Shown piece after piece: positions 7,145 through 27,088 of a stretch of DNA of 37,298 bases (its first letter is position 1; every line of letters begins with the position of its first letter). The notes beneath the pieces were generated by a model, which saw only the letters and a program-made list of their open reading frames with translations, was not told where the DNA came from and ran no database searches. The DNA is from a virus, in IMG/VR virus record IMGVR_UViG_3300011440_000040, positions 1 to 37,298 of that record; one strand, written 5' to 3'. The translations under genes were made by a program, and so were the position numbers.

Positions 7145-8499
7145 CCGTTGTGGCTCCCTGCTACTTTGCGCTCACGCGCCAATGTCAGCTTGTTGAACGC
7201 CAAGCTGCTTGTATCCACCTGATCGTCATGCGTACCGTAAGGGAAACTGGCAAGCTCATTGAGATAAGCAAAGTTCCACGCACCCTTAACCAGCTTGACG
7301 TTCTCGGCTCCGCATTGTGCAGCATAGGGCTGCGCGCGTGTCGTTTTGTCGCCCGTAGATCGTTCGGCCTTGACCACATGCCCCGCCAACGCGCGTATGG
7401 TAATCCTAGCGACCTGCTTGCCGCTACTGCCTGGCTCTTGCTCAAACCAACTGGTCACATCGCCATAGCGCGCCGCATCCATTTCGGTCACTTGCTTGAT
7501 AATCTTATCGCATTGCAAATCGTCCCATTGGCCGCGCACAACATCTTCCACGAAGTAACCACCTTGCTTGTCTTTCGCCATTAGTAAACCAACAGTGTAA
7601 TCGCCTGCACCCTCTGTGCCTGCCCTGTCCCACGCACGCACGCGTTGTGCGTCACGCGGCGCAGCACTCACAATCTCAAACCATTGCCGCTTAAACATGC
7701 CGCCTTCTGGCGGAGCGGGGCGCTGCTGATAGAGCGAATAATAACTGTGTCCTAGCACGCGCTTAATGCCGTTGAGCGCCGTTAAGTCGTAGCGGTCTGG
7801 GCAGAGTGCCGCGCCAACTTCTCTGCCCAACGGGTCGTTTTCTTCGGCCTCGGCTGGTAAGCTAATCACCGTCCATTGATCGGCGTCATCACTTGCCAAA
7901 ATGCGCCCTGCTAAATCATCCTCATGCCAGCGTGTCATGATCAGAATCACAGTGGCGTCAGGCTCAAGGCGTGTATATAAATCGTCCGTATACCATTGCC
8001 ATACCTTCTCGCGATAGGTTTCGCTATTAGCCTCTTCGCGGTTCTTTACGGGGTCGTCAATGATGATGAGATGCCCACCCTGTCCCGTGATACCAGCCCC
8101 CACACCCACCGCCCGATACGTGCCGCCGCCTACTGTTTCCCACTCTTCAACTGCCTTGCGTTCGCGGTCTAGTTCAAAGCGTTCTTTGGCAATGCGCCGG
8201 CTCTTACGACTAAAACGGTTGGCAAGTGTTTGGCTGTATGCACCCACCACCACGCGCAATGACGGTTCCTGCTCCATGCGCCAGACGGGATAACGTACCG
8301 TAACCATTTCGGACTTGCCGTGTCGCGGCGGCACAAAAAGCATAAGCCGCCGAATCTCGCCACTCGTGACACGCTCAAGCGTCTCTTGGATGTGGCGCAA
8401 ATATGCCCAGTCCCAGGTTAGTTCAGGCGAGACATCTTGGAGCCATTTGCCGAAACTATCCTGAATCGCCGCCTGTGTCGCCGCTTGGAAGTGCTTCAA
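7141..8499 (-). CDS. terL: Terminase large subunit (ATPase-nuclease)
   Basis: The DNA-packaging motor and headful/site nuclease. Walker A is VPPRHGKSEM; Walker B is HLIIIDDPVKN; a coupling-motif-like segment follows at TVILIMTRWHEDDL. The RNase H-like nuclease domain includes RVRAWDRAGTEGAGDYT, VEDVVRGQWDD and the C-terminal YGTHDDQVDTSS with the last acidic residues. The start is uncertain. A TTG at 8499 leaves a 44-base overlap with the small subunit. Longer in-frame starts (TTG 8604, ATG 8592) would overlap it by about 140 bases, and their extra residues look unlike TerL. Function is certain. Confidence 0.92.
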   Translation of the reverse strand: MKHFQAATQAAIQDSFGKWLQDVSPELTWDWAYLRHIQETLERVTSGEIRRLMLFVPPRHGKSEMVTVRYPVWRMEQEPSLRVVVGAYSQTLANRFSRKSRRIAKERFELDRERKAVEEWETVGGGTYRAVGVGAGITGQGGHLIIIDDPVKNREEANSETYREKVWQWYTDDLYTRLEPDATVILIMTRWHEDDLAGRILASDDADQWTVISLPAEAEENDPLGREVGAALCPDRYDLTALNGIKRVLGHSYYSLYQQRPAPPEGGMFKRQWFEIVSAAPRDAQRVRAWDRAGTEGAGDYTVGLLMAKDKQGGYFVEDVVRGQWDDLQCDKIIKQVTEMDAARYGDVTSWFEQEPGSSGKQVARITIRALAGHVVKAERSTGDKTTRAQPYAAQCGAENVKLVKGAWNFAYLNELASFPYGTHDDQVDTSSLAFNKLTLARERKVAGSHNG

Positions 8500-8830
8500 G
8501 TACCCGCATGTTCTTATCCTTGATGACGCCGTAGAGAACAGCGAGTTCGGAAGCCCTTTGCCTTCGTAGCCATTTTTCGTCTGTAAATACATTTTGCATC
8601 GCAATCAAAGTCTCAAGTTCGGCCTCAACATTGTCGATAATTAGTTCGCCAATGCGTTCGCGTTTTTCGGTTGATACAGTATGGTTCCGCTGCAAGTTTC
8701 TTGACCAAGACGCAACCGTACCCCTCGGTATCTTGTATTCTTTGGCAACGTGGTTGATAGATTGCCCTGCTAGGAGCGCAGCCATTACAGATGCTTTAGT
8801 CGCTTCGTCGTATTCCTGACGCTCTGCCAT
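8456..8830 (-). CDS. terS: Terminase small subunit
   Basis: A 124-residue protein just before the large subunit. The N-terminus is a helix-turn-helix (residues about 12-45, with AGQSINHVAKEYKIPRGTVA) that would recognise the packaging site. The middle is helical and likely mediates ring assembly, and a short Gly-rich tail follows. Its ATG overlaps the stop of the lipoprotein gene (TAATG). Position and HTH make the call strong. Confidence 0.85.
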   Translation of the reverse strand: MAERQEYDEATKASVMAALLAGQSINHVAKEYKIPRGTVASWSRNLQRNHTVSTEKRERIGELIIDNVEAELETLIAMQNVFTDEKWLRRQRASELAVLYGVIKDKNMRVLEALPSGDTGGDSG

Positions 8831-9045
8831 TACATATCACTCCACTTAACATCAGGGTTGCATCGCCAACTGTTCACAGGAAAGCACCAATGGATGCGTG
8901 GCCTGTCAGGAACAGCGTAGAAGTTGCAGCCGCTTAGTACAATCATAAGTACCACCATTGCCGCCAAAACAATGCGCTTGACGACCTGATACGCCAGCCA
9001 TGCCAGAACCACCGCAAACAGGGCGACAATGGCAAGGCGAATCAT
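8830..9045 (-). CDS. Small membrane/lipoprotein at the end of the lysis cassette
   Basis: A 71-residue protein with an N-terminal hydrophobic segment (residues 3-19), a KR pair, and a second hydrophobic run ending in a lipobox-like LSGC (Cys40). A polar tail with two more Cys follows. The ATG overlaps the endolysin stop (ATGA). Place and lipobox recall outer-membrane spanin subunits (Rz1), but the double hydrophobic start is atypical and no partner is adjacent. It could also be a small lysis accessory protein. Confidence 0.65.
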   Translation of the reverse strand: MIRLAIVALFAVVLAWLAYQVVKRIVLAAMVVLMIVLSGCNFYAVPDRPRIHWCFPVNSWRCNPDVKWSDM

Positions 9046-10424
9046 TTGCTCATTTCCTCTAGCAGATCACCCGTACGGTTTACCCACCCTGCGCCAAACA
9101 CATTCCAGTTATCCAGCTTGGTGTAGGTATGCAAACGTTTGGCGGCAAAAGCATAGGGGTTAACTCCTACCTCTTGCTGCCATCGCTGCGCTGTACCTAC
9201 GCCATGCAAAACGGCGGTATCAAAGACAAGCAAAGAGGCAGGCCAGGGCAACTCATTTGCCCCGCTGCGCTGCCAATAGTCGCTACGGTAAATATCTTTT
9301 GCTTGCTCCCTTGTCAAGTTGCGAATATCAAGGTTAGGGTAGCTTGCCGCGCTAATTCCGAAATTTGTCCCCTTGAGTTCGCCTTGCCCCTTGCGTCCAC
9401 CCGTCCAGTTGCCATGATCTTCGGGGTTCAGCGACAGCCCACCTTCCCACCTCAATAGCCACTCGATTGCACGCGGGAAGTTATCGCCCACCGGTGCGGG
9501 TTCCGGCTTCGTGCCTGTACCGATGCTGGGTAAGTGCGTCTCGATAGGTGGGACACTTGCTTGCTTAACATGCTGCCAATCATAGACTTCAAGCGCATCA
9601 CGAATCGGGCGCACATCGAAACTATCCCAGGGATGCGAAAAGTCATATGTAAATACCTGATAGCTGTGGATGCGTGGGTCATTGATACCCATAATGAACT
9701 CATCCAGCCAGCGGCAATAGTCAGGTGGATTCATTGTGCGTAAGTAGCCATCATGTGCGCCGCCTGTGGTCACATGCTCGTCAGACCCACACTCGCCTAT
9801 CACCCACTCAACATCTTGCCAAGTGCAAGCGCGCAAACGGTCATAATGGCCCGGCACGCATGGCTGTGTGCTACTGCCATAGATGTGAGCAACGGCGATA
9901 TGATGGCCCCTGACAATAGCCTGGTGCGAACCCTCAAAGACGGTGTAGTCAGCCTGTGTGTTGCCTGTGCCGTCAACGGTACGAGGATGGCCCGTGCTGA
10001 AGTTAAATGCGCCACCCCGTAAACCATGCACCCTTAATGTGTCGAGGAAGGCGGTAGTGTATTTATCAATGGCGGCACGGTCGCCATTTGTGGCGTCAGG
10101 CTCGTTGATTCCGAGGAAGAAGGTGCGGTTGGTGGGCGTGTGAACATTGCCGCTTGTCACCTTTGCCGCCCACTCATTCGCATGGCGTGTGCCTGTTCCA
10201 ACAGGGTCAGCCCACATATCAGACTTTTGCTCTGACATTGGATGGTCACGCGCCAGGATGTAGGCGTCTTGGGGCAATACCGCCAGCAAGTCACGGCAGG
10301 CGTCACGGTTGCTCCAGTGCCACTCAAAAAGTTTGACGCTTGGGTATCGCATCCGTCCGACGTGCGAATAGTCGCGCCCATCTGGGTGCGTGCGAATCCA
10401 GTGTTGACCTAACAGGCTAGTCAT
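9042..10424 (-). CDS. Endolysin: clan-A-like glycoside hydrolase domain plus GH108-like muramidase domain
   Basis: A 460-residue protein from the ATG at 10424, whose A overlaps the stop of the upstream membrane gene (ATGA); an in-frame upstream extension overlaps that gene and is rejected. Residues about 1-285 look like a TIM-barrel hydrolase, with GINEPD (E108, candidate acid/base) and VIGECGSDE (E211, candidate nucleophile). A Pro-rich linker follows. Residues about 315-460 resemble GH108 lysozymes, with LLRWEGGLSLNPED (E327 in the EGG motif), then GTNFGIS and FDTAVLHGVGTAQRW. The second domain should cut peptidoglycan; the substrate of the first is unknown. No signal peptide, so holin-dependent export is expected. 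Confidence 0.85.
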   Translation of the reverse strand: MTSLLGQHWIRTHPDGRDYSHVGRMRYPSVKLFEWHWSNRDACRDLLAVLPQDAYILARDHPMSEQKSDMWADPVGTGTRHANEWAAKVTSGNVHTPTNRTFFLGINEPDATNGDRAAIDKYTTAFLDTLRVHGLRGGAFNFSTGHPRTVDGTGNTQADYTVFEGSHQAIVRGHHIAVAHIYGSSTQPCVPGHYDRLRACTWQDVEWVIGECGSDEHVTTGGAHDGYLRTMNPPDYCRWLDEFIMGINDPRIHSYQVFTYDFSHPWDSFDVRPIRDALEVYDWQHVKQASVPPIETHLPSIGTGTKPEPAPVGDNFPRAIEWLLRWEGGLSLNPEDHGNWTGGRKGQGELKGTNFGISAASYPNLDIRNLTREQAKDIYRSDYWQRSGANELPWPASLLVFDTAVLHGVGTAQRWQQEVGVNPYAFAAKRLHTYTKLDNWNVFGAGWVNRTGDLLEEMSK

Positions 10425-10591
10425 AGCGTGAGCAGCCCAAAACGCTGAACAAGATATACAAGGAGGAGGAGTGCTACCAGGACAATGATCACCGTCCTCA
10501 CCGGCTGCGGCATCGGAATTTGGCCTAATATCCAAAAAAGCAGGTAGACCACAAGGCACAGGACAATCACCCAGATGAGAAGTTCTAGCAT
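10421..10591 (-). CDS. Small two-helix membrane protein (possible holin/lysis accessory)
   Basis: A 56-residue protein read directly from the sequence, starting at the ATG at 10591 three bases after the stop of the holin-like gene and ending in ATGA overlap with the endolysin. It has two hydrophobic helices, LIWVIVLCLVVYLLFWIL and VIIVLVALLLLVYLV, joined by a Pro-rich turn (IPMPQPVR). This hairpin plan is common among tiny phage membrane proteins beside endolysins. Function as holin or anti-holin is inferred from place and topology. Confidence 0.75.
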   Translation of the reverse strand: MLELLIWVIVLCLVVYLLFWILGQIPMPQPVRTVIIVLVALLLLVYLVQRFGLLTL

Positions 10592-10594
10592 GGT

Positions 10595-10858
10595 TTAATC
10601 CTTTGGCGCTGACGCCGAACGTGTACTACCACTCGCACGCACCAAAGTCTCGCCGTCTTTGGTGGTAGGATTTTCCAGGCTGGTTACTTTGGGCGAGGTG
10701 ACGAAAGCAACGGCAATGGGTGAAACGACCGCCACAAAGCCCATAATGGCAGTAGATTGCTGCTCGGTCAGCGGTACACCAAAGGCGACGAGCAAGGTAA
10801 TCAAGGCCGCGACGATGGCGCTGACAGTGGCAGCCGACCACACAGGCGAGTTACTCAT
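10595..10858 (-). CDS. Holin-like membrane protein
   Basis: An 87-residue protein with two predicted transmembrane helices (about residues 8-27 and 36-54) joined by GVPLTEQQ, then a polar, charged tail. The plan and the turn 'FGVPLT.(E/D)Q' match small holin-like proteins found before endolysins. It sits between the membrane-anchored beta protein (TAA then ATG, adjacent) and the 56-residue membrane protein. It is the best holin candidate of the cassette, though no function test is possible from sequence. Confidence 0.75.
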   Translation of the reverse strand: MSNSPVWSAATVSAIVAALITLLVAFGVPLTEQQSTAIMGFVAVVSPIAVAFVTSPKVTSLENPTTKDGETLVRASGSTRSASAPKD

Positions 10859-11323
10859 TTATTGGCATCCTTCTATAATTTCAAAATCACGCACAATAAA
10901 GGCCGTCTTTTGTATTCCCTCCACATTGCGCGCCGCAAAGACACGTGTATATTTGCCGGGCGGCAAGTCGGGAACCGTCCAGAGAAGTTGTTGGACAAAC
11001 TTGGCGGGTATCGGGTGCAGAATGTCAGTCCATGCGCGCTGCGTGCCGATTAGGTTGGCGTGCGTTTGCTGGTCAAGCGTACTGACATAATAGAACATGA
11101 CAATGGATCGAGTGATAGCAATCTCGTTATTGATAGGTACTTGTTCACCGGCGCAAAAGACGCCCAACGGGTCAGGGTCTAGGCTGGTAATAGTAAGCGG
11201 CGGGTTATTGAAGAAGGTATCAAAGACGATAGTAGCCAGTACAATAAGTCCTACCGTTAACAAGGCGGTCAGGGCCATGTAGACAACGCCCCTCCCTACT
11301 GCACCCTGCGTGAACTGTGGCAT
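10859..11323 (-). CDS. Membrane-anchored protein with extracytoplasmic beta-sandwich-like domain
   Basis: A 154-residue protein with one N-terminal transmembrane helix (about residues 12-34, VVYMALTALLTVGLIVLATI) and then about 115 polar residues with beta pattern. These include LDPDPLGVFCAGEQVPI and TVPDLPPGKYTRVFAARN, the latter typical of Ig-like or Ig-related strands ('lpPG.Y'). Two or three Cys may form a disulfide outside. The start lies three bases after the CHAT protease stop (TAA CCC ATG), so the pair is co-translated. It is not a recognised lysis protein. It may be the sensor, target or partner of the protease; that is inference. Confidence 0.7.
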   Translation of the reverse strand: MPQFTQGAVGRGVVYMALTALLTVGLIVLATIVFDTFFNNPPLTITSLDPDPLGVFCAGEQVPINNEIAITRSIVMFYYVSTLDQQTHANLIGTQRAWTDILHPIPAKFVQQLLWTVPDLPPGKYTRVFAARNVEGIQKTAFIVRDFEIIEGCQ

Positions 11324-11326
11324 GGG

Positions 11327-12121
11327 TTAGACTCCGGCCCCCTGGAAAAAGACGACAATCGCCAACGCAACCAGGGCAATGGAGACAACCACAGTCAGAT
11401 ACATCACCCAACGGCGATTAAACCGTTGTCCATCCTCTACCTTTTGCAAGCGTACCGACATCGCTCGTACCTCGTCCACTACTTCCTTGTTGGAGTCAAC
11501 CAAGCCCTTGAGTCGCAATCTCGGATCACCATTCACCAACGCATCCAGACGTTCTACAACTTCATTTAAGCGCGCCTCTGACCCTGCTTCGCTTGTGGCC
11601 TTCGGATTGTTGTACGGGGGCATCACAGACCCTTTCGCACCGAAAAAGGTATAGGTCGAGTTCTGCCCCGGCTTGGCAAGTTCATAAGCATCATGGAAGT
11701 CATGCCCGTTGGCTATCTGCTTGGCGAATACGGCTCCCGTGACAAAGGCTTGTCTGTCGGGTATGGCTCTCAGCGTGCAGACAAGATTGCCGCGCAACTC
11801 TTCAAAAATAGCCTTAGCGATAGGGTAGCTTGCACAGGTATTGAGTACGGTTAGCTTCGTGCCTGCGCTGCGGATGAGTGTCGTCAGTTCAGAAGCGTTG
11901 ACAACGCCATCTTGCAGGTAGATACCCCTCTCATCCCCATGCGAACAAATCCAAACGATGTCCCACCCCTCGCCCGTCATGTCCAACATGCCGTGCAGCG
12001 TTGCCCGTTTGCCCTGTAACAGCCGCCCCTCCAACGCATTGACAACTGACATCACTTCATCGCTGGCATAGGGTAGGTCAGGGTTGTTCGGAGCAATAAC
12101 TAGACACCTGTAACTAGCCAT
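11327..12121 (-). CDS. CHAT-domain (caspase-like) cysteine protease with coiled coil and C-terminal membrane anchor
   Basis: A 264-residue protein. Residues 1-160 fit a minimal CHAT/caspase-fold protease: VWICSHGDERGIYL holds the catalytic His (H61, 'SHG'); LTVLNTCAS holds the catalytic Cys (C96) at the end of a beta strand; then VFAKQIANGHDFHDAYELA, the usual closing helices. Residues about 183-235 are a coiled coil with ALVNGDPRLRLKGLVD, and 239-259 a transmembrane helix after RRW. This tail resembles XhlA-like accessory proteins found beside holins. The catalytic domain should face the cytoplasm. I chose ATG 12121 because of a TGGAG site five bases before it and because the longer start would place a terminator hairpin in the coding region. 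Substrate and role unknown. Confidence 0.85.
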   Translation of the reverse strand: MASYRCLVIAPNNPDLPYASDEVMSVVNALEGRLLQGKRATLHGMLDMTGEGWDIVWICSHGDERGIYLQDGVVNASELTTLIRSAGTKLTVLNTCASYPIAKAIFEELRGNLVCTLRAIPDRQAFVTGAVFAKQIANGHDFHDAYELAKPGQNSTYTFFGAKGSVMPPYNNPKATSEAGSEARLNEVVERLDALVNGDPRLRLKGLVDSNKEVVDEVRAMSVRLQKVEDGQRFNRRWVMYLTVVVSIALVALAIVVFFQGAGV

Positions 12122-12134
12122 GTTGCTCCAGGGC

Positions 12135-12182
12135 AAATAAAAAGGGCAGCGCAGACACTCTTTCGAGTAATCCACGCTGCCC
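12135..12182 (-). terminator. Intrinsic terminator directly upstream of the CHAT gene
   Basis: On the minus strand GGGCAGCG, an inner hairpin ACTC-GAAA-GAGT, and CGCTGCCC are followed by TTTTTATTT: a full intrinsic terminator. It ends 13 bases before the CHAT start codon, leaving no room for a promoter between. Lysis and structural genes therefore depend on read-through or antitermination, unless another promoter overlaps the hairpin. Confidence 0.85.
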
Positions 12183-12304
12183 ATAGCAGTTCTTGTGGTG
12201 CGGTAGCGGCCTATGCCGCCCGATTCAATTAGGTGCGGGAAAGTTGGTTGTACCAGGGTCGTTAGCAGTGATAACCTGACACATTCGGCCCGTTACGGTG
12301 TACT

Positions 12305-12502
12305 CTACACCTTTTCAGGTGAAATATCAATAGTTTGCAAAGCCGCCACGTCCACCAGTATCTTTTCGCCCTTATAGAAAACCTCAATGATGGTCGTGCC
12401 ACGCAGACAGCGCACATTGGTTCGTCTACCTTCTTGGTCTAGAACAAACTCCCATTGTGGGCTGTGTTCGCTCGGTACGGTAATCTGCGTGGTCTTTTTC
12501 AT
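12305..12502 (-). CDS. Small hypothetical protein
   Basis: A 65-residue protein whose ATG overlaps the preceding stop (ATGA). It reads as beta-rich, with WEFVLDQEGRRTNVRCL and IEVFYKGEKILVDV. No family recognised. It is the last gene before the terminator. The 120 bases that follow hold a possible 19-codon reading frame and a small GC hairpin (GCGGC-ATAG-GCCGC), but nothing else I can support. Confidence 0.6.
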   Translation of the reverse strand: MKKTTQITVPSEHSPQWEFVLDQEGRRTNVRCLRGTTIIEVFYKGEKILVDVAALQTIDISPEKV

Positions 12503-13284
12503 GCTACGCAGCCCGTTGTCGCCCTGGCTGTCGCATCTTCAACCCCCGCCGCCTCGGCTAAACCTTCCCACGAGAGACCAAGCCGCTGCATGTGCGCGCC
12601 CGCCGTTGCCCAATTGCCAGGCCGCGCCGCATCGAAGGTGGCGATGCTGGGCATGACCTCCGTGCCCATCGCAAGCCGCTTCAGCTCGGCAATGACAACC
12701 TGAAGGGTCGGCAACGTATTGCCCTTGCGTCCCGCGCTTGTGGCCTGCTCATAGCCCATCTTGCGCTTGCGCTTGAGAGAATCCAGTTGAGCGCGGCGGG
12801 CATCCGTCATGCCCTTCTTGGGCTTGCGTGTGTCGTCGAAGTCATCGTCGAGATCGTCATCGTCGTCCAGCATATCCACCTCCTCCAACGTGCGCGGCTT
12901 GTTGAGAATAGCCACCAGGTTGCCATTGCTGCCGGCAGCAAGCGCGTTCGCAACCTTGTCACGCGCAATGTCGGGGTCAGGTAGGCGGCTGGTGCTGATG
13001 GATGGCGTGGCAATCGCCTCATCCATATCGGCCCATAGTTGCTTCATGGGGTCATCCCATTGCTCGCGCCCCTTGTCGTCTGCGTCCTGGTGGCGGACAA
13101 CGAGTTCGCGCAGGCTCTCACGAACAGCAGCCGCCTCCTGCTCGTCTCGCTGCTCTTCAATCACGTCATACACCAGGCGCACCAAGCCCAACGTCATCTT
13201 GGGCAAATAGTCTCCCAGCTTAAATTCATCCAGTCGCCCATTGATGCGCTGGGTCAGGTCTGCAAGTTCGCTGCTAGTTAGCAT
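12499..13284 (-). CDS. Protein with acidic linker and C-terminal homing-endonuclease-associated-repeat-like motif
   Basis: A 261-residue protein from the ATG at 13284, which overlaps the previous stop (TAATG) and has GGGAGA about nine bases before it. The N-terminal half is helical and charged. An acidic run (about residues 138-151, DMLDDDDDLDDDFDD) precedes a very basic stretch (KRKRKM). The last about 55 residues, with VMPSIATFDAARPGNW and GLSWEGLAEAAGV, resemble the short HNH-associated DNA-binding repeat found in phage proteins. No nuclease motif is present. Possibly a DNA-binding replication or regulatory protein; low certainty. Confidence 0.6.
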   Translation of the reverse strand: MLTSSELADLTQRINGRLDEFKLGDYLPKMTLGLVRLVYDVIEEQRDEQEAAAVRESLRELVVRHQDADDKGREQWDDPMKQLWADMDEAIATPSISTSRLPDPDIARDKVANALAAGSNGNLVAILNKPRTLEEVDMLDDDDDLDDDFDDTRKPKKGMTDARRAQLDSLKRKRKMGYEQATSAGRKGNTLPTLQVVIAELKRLAMGTEVMPSIATFDAARPGNWATAGAHMQRLGLSWEGLAEAAGVEDATARATTGCVA

Positions 13285-24160: not shown

Positions 24161-24287
24161 GCTTTTCGTGCTTGGCCCCTAGATTTATCGATGGGGAGAA
24201 GTAGGTTGGCAGGGCCAACATGAAAACTCTACGATGGATGAATCAGTGAGGCCCTCCATAGCTACCAGCCCAAACAAAGAGGTTGCC

Positions 24288-25943
24288 ATGCCCCCCAAGA
24301 GAAATACTCTCTATTACGGCGACAATCTGCCGATCCTACGGCAGCACATTCCAGACAACTCTGTCGATCTAGTCTATCTTGACCCACCCTTCAACTCCAA
24401 CCGCAGCTACAACGTGCTTTTCAAGGATGAAGGCGGCGCTGACTCCGAGGCCCAGGTACAGGCTTTTGTTGATACCTGGCACTGGAACGAAGCGGCGGCG
24501 GAGCAGTACAACCAGCTTGTGACTGGCCCCCATGTTGAGATGGGCCAGTTGATCGTCGCCCTGCGTGACTTCATCGGTGAGAACCAGATGATGGCCTACT
24601 TGGTGATGATGGCGTCGCGGTTGGTGGAGCTGCACCGCGTGCTAAAGCCCACAGGAAGCCTCTATCTGCATTGCGACCCCACAGCCAGCCACTACTTGAA
24701 GATCGTGCTGGACATCATCTTTGGGCCGGAGAACTTCCGCAACGAAATCGTTTGGAAGCGCACATCAGCACACGCTAATGTGAAGCAGAAATACGGCGTA
24801 GTTCACGATCTGCTCTTGTTCTACTCGGGGTCTGCACATTACACCTGGAATCAGATATACGAGCCATATGATGAGGAATACATCAACACGTTCTTTGATC
24901 AACGAGATGAAACCGGACGGCTCTATGCAAGGCGTGATTTGACGGCTTCAATGCAGCGAGCTTCATCCGGACAAATCTATACTTGGAAAGGCGTTACCCC
25001 TCCGCCCAGCAGATGTTGGGCTATGACCAAAGAGCGAATGGACGAATTAGATACATCTGGGCGCATCCACTGGCCAAAAAAAGAGGGTGGAATGCCGCGC
25101 TTGAAAATGTACCCCGAAGATTTGCCAGGAATCCCCTTGCAGGACATTTGGCTTGATATTTCTGTTATGCATAATTTGTCTGCCGAACGCTTGGGCTATC
25201 CTACCCAAAAGCCCCTCGCTCTCTTGGAGCGCATTCTGGCGGCGTCAAGCAATCCGGGTGACGTCGTGCTTGACCCCTTCTGTGGCTGTGGGACGACTAT
25301 CGCCGCTGCACAGCGCATGGGCCGACAGTGGATCGGCATTGACGTGACCCACCTGTCAATTGCTCTGCAAAAATATAGGCTGGCCGACGCCTTCGGCCTG
25401 GTGGCAGGAACGAACTATGACGTGGTCGGGGAACCTGCCGATCTGGACTCTGCCCAACAACTGGCCGAAGAGAATCCCTACCAATTTCAGTGGTGGGCGC
25501 TGTCGCTGATTCGGGCGCGTCCCCTGGGCGCAGATGCCGGCAGTAAGACGGGCAAGAAGGGTGCAGATCGGGGCATTGATGGCGTAATCAGCTTTGTTGA
25601 CGATGCCACTGGCAGACCCAGGCGGGCGCTGGTGCAAGTCAAGGGTGGCAAGGTCAGCAGCCGAGACATTCGCGACCTTGTAGGGACGGTCAACCGAGAG
25701 AAGGCGGCAATGGGCATCTTTGTCACGATGGAGCCAGCATCGCGCCCAATGGTCACAGAAGCGGGGAGCGCGGGACACTACCATTCTCCTGGCTGGAATC
25801 AGCGTTACCCAACAATCCAAATTCTGACCATCGAAGAATTGCTGGACGGCAAGACGGTCAATATGCCGCCGACATCGATCACCTTCGCCAAAGCAGAGAG
25901 CGACCGCACGGCCAGCGATGGTCAGTTAAAATTGAACTTCTAA
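24288..25943 (+). CDS. DNA methyltransferase fused to an Mrr-like nuclease domain
   Basis: A 551-residue protein from the ATG at 24288, with AGAGG five to six bases before it; an ATG at 24234 gives 18 more residues. Motif IV is [10 protein letters not shown] (D32-F35), followed by the target recognition region and then motif [10 protein letters not shown] (329-337). This order places it with the beta class of N4-C/N6-A amino-methyltransferases. The C-terminal 150 residues look like an Mrr-type endonuclease: [13 protein letters not shown], then [20 protein letters not shown], a D...QxK core (D431, Q450, K452). It may be a one-protein restriction-modification enzyme or a methylase with a regulatory nuclease domain. 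The upstream terminator marks it as a separate (moron-like) unit. Confidence 0.9.
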
Positions 25944-25984: not shown

Positions 25985-27088
25985 ATGAACCGGCTCGCTT
26001 TCTTCCTGATCATCGCCTTACTCGTCGCCGCCAGCGTGGGAATCGTCCACGCTGATACAACCTATATCCCCACCGCGCGTAATGGCATCGCCCGCGCTGG
26101 CACGCCAACCAGCACCGTGACCGCTACGTCAACCGGCCAGGGTAATGGCGAAACGCAGACGCCCACCAGCACGCCCACCAGCACCGGCACCAACACCGCC
26201 ACGCCTACGGCGACGGAGACCAGTTGGATTGTTCCTGGCGACACCAGCACGCCAACACAAACACCGACTATCACCCCAACCCCAACCGCGACCGACGAGC
26301 AAACCGGCGCCCCCTGTTCATGCGCGGCTGACACCCTCAACTGTTCGGACTTCGGCACGCAGCCCGAAGCCCAAGCCTGTATGAACTATTGTGTCAACCA
26401 GGGACAAGGCGATATTCATGGGCTAGACGGAAACGATAATGATGGGCTGGCCTGTGAGAGCTTGCCGGGCGGGGCCGGGGAGATCACCGTGTTGGATAAT
26501 CACTTGGCCTATACGAACAGCACCGAAAGCCTTTATATCGTGGGAGAGGTGCAAAACAATACGGATGATCGAGCGCGGTTCACCAAGATCGCGGTGAATC
26601 TTTTCACTGCGCAAGGCCAGTTGGTTGACACGGAATACACCTATACCCCTCTTGATTATCTGCCTGTTGGGGCAACAACCTGCTTTAAGATTATCTTCTT
26701 CTCGGAGGCACCCAGCTACTCTTATTACACGTTTGAAACCGATTACTCTGCTACAAGTGCAGCGTCACTCCCGATAGCGCTACTTGGGCATAGCGGCTCA
26801 TATCACGCCACTATTGAAGATTGGTATGAGGTAGTTGGGCAGGCGCGCAATGATAGCGATGTCAATGCTGAATTTGTAACCATTACCGGCACACTCTATC
26901 GGAGCAATGGACAGGTTTTAGATTGTGACTTCACCTATACAAATGCTGATGTGTTGACGCCTGACCAAGTGAGTACCTGGGAGATACTCTTTTTACATGC
27001 GCCCGAAGGCTTAGTTAGCAGTTACAAGGTGGAGGCCCAGGGAAGGGAAGAGACACCCTCTTTCACCGGCTTTAGGGTGATTCGCTGA
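25985..27088 (+). CDS. Secreted protein: signal peptide, Thr/Pro-rich linker, excalibur-like motif, two FxLYD-like domains
   Basis: A 367-residue protein. Residues 1-23 are a signal peptide ending in HA-D. About residues 38-105 are a Thr/Pro/Ser linker of the kind seen in cell-surface proteins of Chloroflexota. About residues 109-160 carry six Cys and a calcium-binding excalibur-like HGLDGNDNDGLACE. Then two beta domains of FxLYD type: one with NHLAYTNSTESLYIVGEVQN, the other with YEVVGQARNDSDVNAEFVTI. It has no place in a virion or replication module and is probably a lysogenic conversion gene acting outside the cell. Substrate unknown. Confidence 0.8.
   Translation: MNRLAFFLIIALLVAASVGIVHADTTYIPTARNGIARAGTPTSTVTATSTGQGNGETQTPTSTPTSTGTNTATPTATETSWIVPGDTSTPTQTPTITPTPTATDEQTGAPCSCAADTLNCSDFGTQPEAQACMNYCVNQGQGDIHGLDGNDNDGLACESLPGGAGEITVLDNHLAYTNSTESLYIVGEVQNNTDDRARFTKIAVNLFTAQGQLVDTEYTYTPLDYLPVGATTCFKIIFFSEAPSYSYYTFETDYSATSAASLPIALLGHSGSYHATIEDWYEVVGQARNDSDVNAEFVTITGTLYRSNGQVLDCDFTYTNADVLTPDQVSTWEILFLHAPEGLVSSYKVEAQGREETPSFTGFRVIR

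Follow-up and report, generated by a model that had tools for sequence, protein, structure and literature searches.

Membrane-anchored CHAT proteases encoded in late gene runs of uncultured phages

A CHAT gene ahead of the lysis genes

The stretch of DNA analysed here (the window, 37,298 bases) makes up an entire IMG/VR record and belongs to a siphovirus-type tailed phage, with genes for terminase, portal, major capsid, tape measure and Dit-like proteins. On its minus strand, a gene coding for a CHAT domain, a linker and a transmembrane (TM) helix opens a tight run, in which it is followed by genes for a 154-aa protein, a holin-like protein, a 56-aa protein and an endolysin, with gaps of 3, 0, 3 and -3 nt between successive genes (Table 1). 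The small and large terminase genes lie downstream of this run. Ahead of the CHAT gene is a gap of 183 nt, in which no convincing sigma-70 promoter or terminator was found. The initial annotation had proposed a phage-encoded, membrane-anchored CHAT protease that opens a lysis cassette, and homology, predicted fold, TM helix and gene order in the window all agree with this description.

The boundaries and strand first given for the gene were correct. The full open reading frame runs from 12184 to 11327 on the minus strand, and the ATG at 12121, yielding a 264-aa product, is the better start because a GGAG box precedes it by 5 nt and homologues start at the same residue. For the endolysin, the translation points to 10424 as the probable start, rather than a GTG at 10559. 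The 154-aa protein (the partner) matched no family in Pfam, PHROG or the PDB, and no gasdermin or other pore family was recognised with Pfam among the neighbours of the CHAT gene. As a side observation, the 71-aa protein with an LSGC box, encoded between the endolysin and the small terminase, could be a spanin-like lysis component.

Table 1. Coordinates of the CHAT gene, its domains and the neighbouring features in the window
Feature	Coordinates	Strand	Basis
Gap ahead of the CHAT gene, 183 nt	12122..12304	.	
CHAT-linker-TM gene, 264 aa, dyad H61/C96	11327..12121	-	homology, model fold, hydropathy
CHAT catalytic domain (predicted), residues 1-160	11642..12121	-	AF2 model
Long C-terminal helix (predicted), residues 209-259: helical linker and TM helix, TM peak at residue 239	11345..11497	-	AF2 model, hydropathy
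Partner, 154 aa, N-terminal TM helix and predicted outside domain, VPDLPPGxY motif	10859..11323	-	
Holin-like protein of 87 aa with two hydrophobic stretches	10595..10858	-	phrog_9752 holin, E 6.7e-6; homologue in L096
56-aa protein with two hydrophobic stretches, overlapping the start of the endolysin	10421..10591	-	sequence
Endolysin, GH108 C-terminal domain	9042..10424	-	PF05838, E 1.8e-19; phrog_315 endolysin
71-aa membrane/lipoprotein-like protein, LSGC box	8830..9045	-	sequence

Homology, predicted fold and anchor of the window protein

The SHG histidine and NTC cysteine from which a CHAT fold had been proposed are both present, His61 within SHGDERG and Cys96 within LNTCAS. Against the Pfam CHAT family (PF12770), the protein scored 23.2 bits (E 5.5e-5), just below the curated cut-off of 24 bits. 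An independent profile was made from seven CHAT domains of plasmid-borne cellular proteins, with the window protein excluded. Run against 726 ORFs of the window, this profile matched the CHAT ORF only (59.3 bits, E 1.5e-17), and the highest score that 5000 shuffles of the protein reached against it was 6.8 bits. A plasmid search with the window protein itself retrieved cellular CHAT proteins (best E 5e-5). In the joint alignment of the window protein and the cellular CHATs, H61, N94, C96 and A125 are invariant, and H61, N94 and C96 thus align with invariant positions of the cellular family.

Structure was examined on an AlphaFold2 (AF2) model computed with nine phage homologues as input, the single-sequence model being poor (pLDDT 48). 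Residues 1-150 form a block with a pLDDT of 78-93. The strand order of the model is that of caspases, with His61 placed after the strand 55-59 and Cys96 after the strand 90-94, so that the dyad comes in the order His then Cys at the ends of two central strands. Among solved structures, Foldseek ranked the SAVED-CHAT protein 8tl0 first (E 3.6e-10), then legumain and caspases. VIA gave the same picture, with a Z of 19.7 against 8tl0 (rmsd 2.2 A over 167 residues, 20% identity), a Z of 14.6 for caspase-7, and caspase-7 and legumain, at a Z of about 14, well below 8tl0. A profile derived from the phage proteins alone also matched 8tl0 (E 5.8e-6). The caspase fold anticipated for the N-terminal part is therefore what the model predicts, in the form of a caspase-like alpha/beta fold. 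We conclude from homology, dyad and modelled fold that the window protein belongs to the CHAT family and is, by the same token, a putative protease.

The single C-terminal TM helix is marked by a hydropathy peak of 2.86 at residue 239, and the basic RFNRRW stretch preceding it suggests that the protease domain faces the cytoplasm. A coiled coil followed by a TM helix had been described for this end of the protein. The TM helix stood up to analysis and the model has one long helix across residues 209-259, but the coiled coil itself is no more than plausible, as the pLDDT of the linker is about 38-71. Matches of the linker to SNARE and other coiled-coil proteins were read as composition matches and discarded. 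XhlA and XhlB are a lysis pair of Bacillus prophages in which a helical protein with a C-terminal TM segment is encoded beside the holin. The likeness to XhlA that had been pointed out holds for the helix-TM layout, but not at the profile level, where no XhlA match was obtained in Pfam or PHROGs at E values up to 1; moreover, a protease domain is fused in front only in the phage CHAT protein. No standalone homologue of the linker-TM part was found in a search of phages.

A rare family in two genomic settings

Scans of viral and genome collections with the window protein as single query gave no relatives. An alignment of the window protein with two cellular CHATs retrieved a full-length homologue in contig L096, 46% identical with linker and TM segment included. 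Scanning of 87 fetched loci yielded a second one (L032, 24% identity to the window protein), and a DNA pattern written for D-h-h-W-x3-HGD-x2-G pointed to six further phage contigs, which were then confirmed. The fusion is thus conserved, as the proposal in the initial annotation required, in eight other uncultured phage contigs (L096, L106, L032, L098, L099, L102, L103 and L104). All nine proteins begin with a CHAT domain, which a helical linker joins to one or two TM segments at the C-terminus, and the equivalents of H61 and C96 are retained in every one of them, at identities to the window protein of 23-46%. Individually, 8 of the 9 match Pfam CHAT, with a best E of 2.1e-9. Among five closer members, dN/dS ranges from 0.09 to 0.23, and the protein is therefore under purifying selection.

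These observations bear on the idea that the CHAT domain is a catalytically dead scaffold, acting by binding only. The L032 protein retains both His and Cys, but the Asn two positions ahead of the Cys is gone and there is an insertion beside the His, so that at least one member may be weak. With the dyad invariant at such low identities and under purifying selection, we regard a dead scaffold as highly improbable for the family. Separately, L032 also carries (7978-12642, plus strand) a 1554-aa portal/minor-head ORF whose translation, read by eye, seems to contain two intein (Hint-type) insertions.

The family is rare. In 50,697 annotated phage records no CHAT fusion was found, tblastn giving chance-level matches only; one match, H1 in an Erwinia phage, was without CHAT motifs on inspection. 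A search of genome contigs with a two-sequence alignment had no match, and hence found no cellular or prophage copy, and a plasmid search with a head-operon member had none either. The gene was present in 1 of 80 loci related by their large terminase (TerL), a count to be read with the extent of these loci, many of which are truncated (at least 4.5 kb upstream in 32 and at least 8 kb downstream in 37). In BFVD, an unannotated viral protein of 264 aa, A0A1P8DJ94, matched the model in Foldseek (E 1.7e-16), and is probably a protein of the same architecture deposited without being recognised.

The genes are found in two main settings. In three phages (the window, L096 and L119, the latter being the record of L106), the CHAT gene is contiguous with holin and endolysin genes, and L096 and L119 have the same order of CHAT, TM and ectodomain partner, holin-like protein and endolysin. 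The only genes detectably shared between these two and the window are those for CHAT and partner, with the holin in addition in L096. The partners form a family with the VPDLPPGxY motif (7860-8372 in L096, 10563-11072 in L119), and among the fetched loci their homologues occurred only directly downstream of lysis-located CHAT genes. As the order of the cassette is repeated in otherwise unrelated phages, CHAT and partner look like a unit moving with the holin slot. The C-terminal catalytic domains of the endolysins differ, being GH108 in the window, M23 and SLT in L096 (8635-10899) and M23 in L119 (11500-13554).

Five family members lie elsewhere, in the head gene region. The layout beside holin genes, which the initial annotation had suggested looking for in other phages, thus recurs in L096 and L119, but not in these five. 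Three loci, L116, L118 and L120, come from phages genuinely related to that of the window (54-58% identity in the major capsid and 45-46% in the portal). There, the CHAT gene immediately follows the counterpart of the head-connector gene of the window, between the head-connector and head-closure genes, and in L116 its start codon touches the end of the head-connector homologue. In L032, the genes just ahead of CHAT encode the large terminase and a TM protein of 88 aa. In the tree, the three lysis-located CHATs cluster (support 80/73), and the head-located ones cluster separately (99/98). CHAT kinship therefore tracks genomic place and partner, not phage backbone. We conclude that these proteins are a real and new family of membrane-anchored phage CHAT proteases, encoded in late gene runs.

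Possible roles of the anchored protease

Three known systems help to frame the function, at most by analogy. The closest in structure, SAVED-CHAT (8tl0), is a type III CRISPR/CBASS effector which works in a proteolytic cascade (PMC11229360). It shares with the window protein the caspase-like CHAT domain, with His and Cys at corresponding positions, but it is host-encoded and senses cyclic nucleotides through its SAVED domain, whereas the window protein has no SAVED domain, ends in a TM segment and belongs to phage late operons. Csx29 (TPR-CHAT, in Craspase) is a CHAT protease that cleaves Csx30 in a regulated manner (PMC10028731). The phage proteins differ from it in having neither TPR repeats nor a CRISPR effector, and in being membrane-anchored and phage-encoded. 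Finally, caspase-like proteases activate bacterial gasdermin pores, and in gasdermin operons the gene for the caspase-like or CHAT protease adjoins genes for membrane-permeabilising proteins (PMC9612521). In the phage cassette, the neighbours are instead a holin-like protein and an endolysin, and cleavage of a pore protein would be an extrapolation from the bacterial case.

Because three phages that are otherwise unrelated have CHAT and partner ahead of a holin-like gene and an endolysin, a membrane-bound protease switch tied to lysis or exit appears to us the likeliest role, and we propose it tentatively. The protease, tethered by its C-terminal TM helix and facing the cytoplasm, would be produced alongside the phage late genes. 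The partner would act with it as a membrane switch, either reporting the state outside the membrane or keeping the protease off. Once released, the protease might cut a protein in or bound to the membrane, most likely a component of the lysis machinery (holin or lysis inhibitor), and this cleavage would help to set or trigger host lysis. A role in head maturation was set aside because of the membrane anchor.

A more specific version can be entertained with considerable doubt. Some phages might possess a caspase-like switch dedicated to timing or triggering lysis, in which the cytoplasm-facing, tail-anchored CHAT, paired with its envelope-facing partner, cleaves the holin or a lysis inhibitor, as a viral counterpart of the caspase-gasdermin pathway, carried by a cassette that is mobile between unrelated phages. 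We know of no other protease-gated holin. Literature searches combining holin, lysis cassette and caspase found nothing, and none, in a search that left preprints and most subscription journals aside, found a paper on a phage CHAT or caspase protease in a lysis cassette.

The rarity of the gene counts against a lysis switch. Members in the head region mean that the function cannot depend on lysis neighbours, and two other readings have to be weighed here. In one, the anchored CHAT is an accessory, moron-like weapon against competitors. It would sense a superinfecting phage or a membrane disturbance, through the ectodomain partner where there is one, and kill or shut down the cell, or block the intruder. 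This would fit the fact that most CHAT proteases are effectors of immunity or cell death (PMC11229360, PMC9612521), the rarity of the gene and its different places in related phages, as is the case for accessory genes, and a partner predicted from its TM peak to face outside. Nevertheless, the CHAT genes are embedded in late operons, with start and stop codons overlapping or nearly touching those of neighbouring late genes (junctions of about -4 to +3 nt), and are not isolated genes with signals of their own, and the lack of a convincing promoter ahead of the gene in the window goes in the same direction. We consider a weapon of this kind unlikely.

The other reading is host takeover or counter-defence, where a membrane protease would cut envelope, division or immune proteins of the host, or poison host CHAT assemblies by mixing with them, and so maintain a productive host into late infection. 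Such a role would need no lysis genes nearby, so that the head-operon members fit too, and the fold is closest to that of the immune, filament-forming SAVED-CHAT. Yet takeover leaves unexplained why the pair of CHAT and partner should recur in front of holin-like and endolysin genes in three phages with no other kinship, and on balance it seems to us improbable.

In prokaryotes, work on CHAT and caspase-like proteases has concentrated on their part in host immunity and cell death. A conserved, anchored phage family in late gene runs suggests that phages turn the same enzyme to their own ends. If the anchored protease did control lysis, this mode of regulation would be, as far as we know, undescribed, and it would link viral exit with caspase-driven pore formation.

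Two further genes of the window deserve mention, irrespective of the CHAT family. One (24234-25943, plus strand, opposite to the late genes) codes for a 569-aa DNA adenine methyltransferase with strong matches to type II/III methyltransferases. The product of the other (25985-27088, plus strand) is 367 aa long, has an FxLYD domain and matches the PADLOC model PD-T4-6 weakly (E 0.001).
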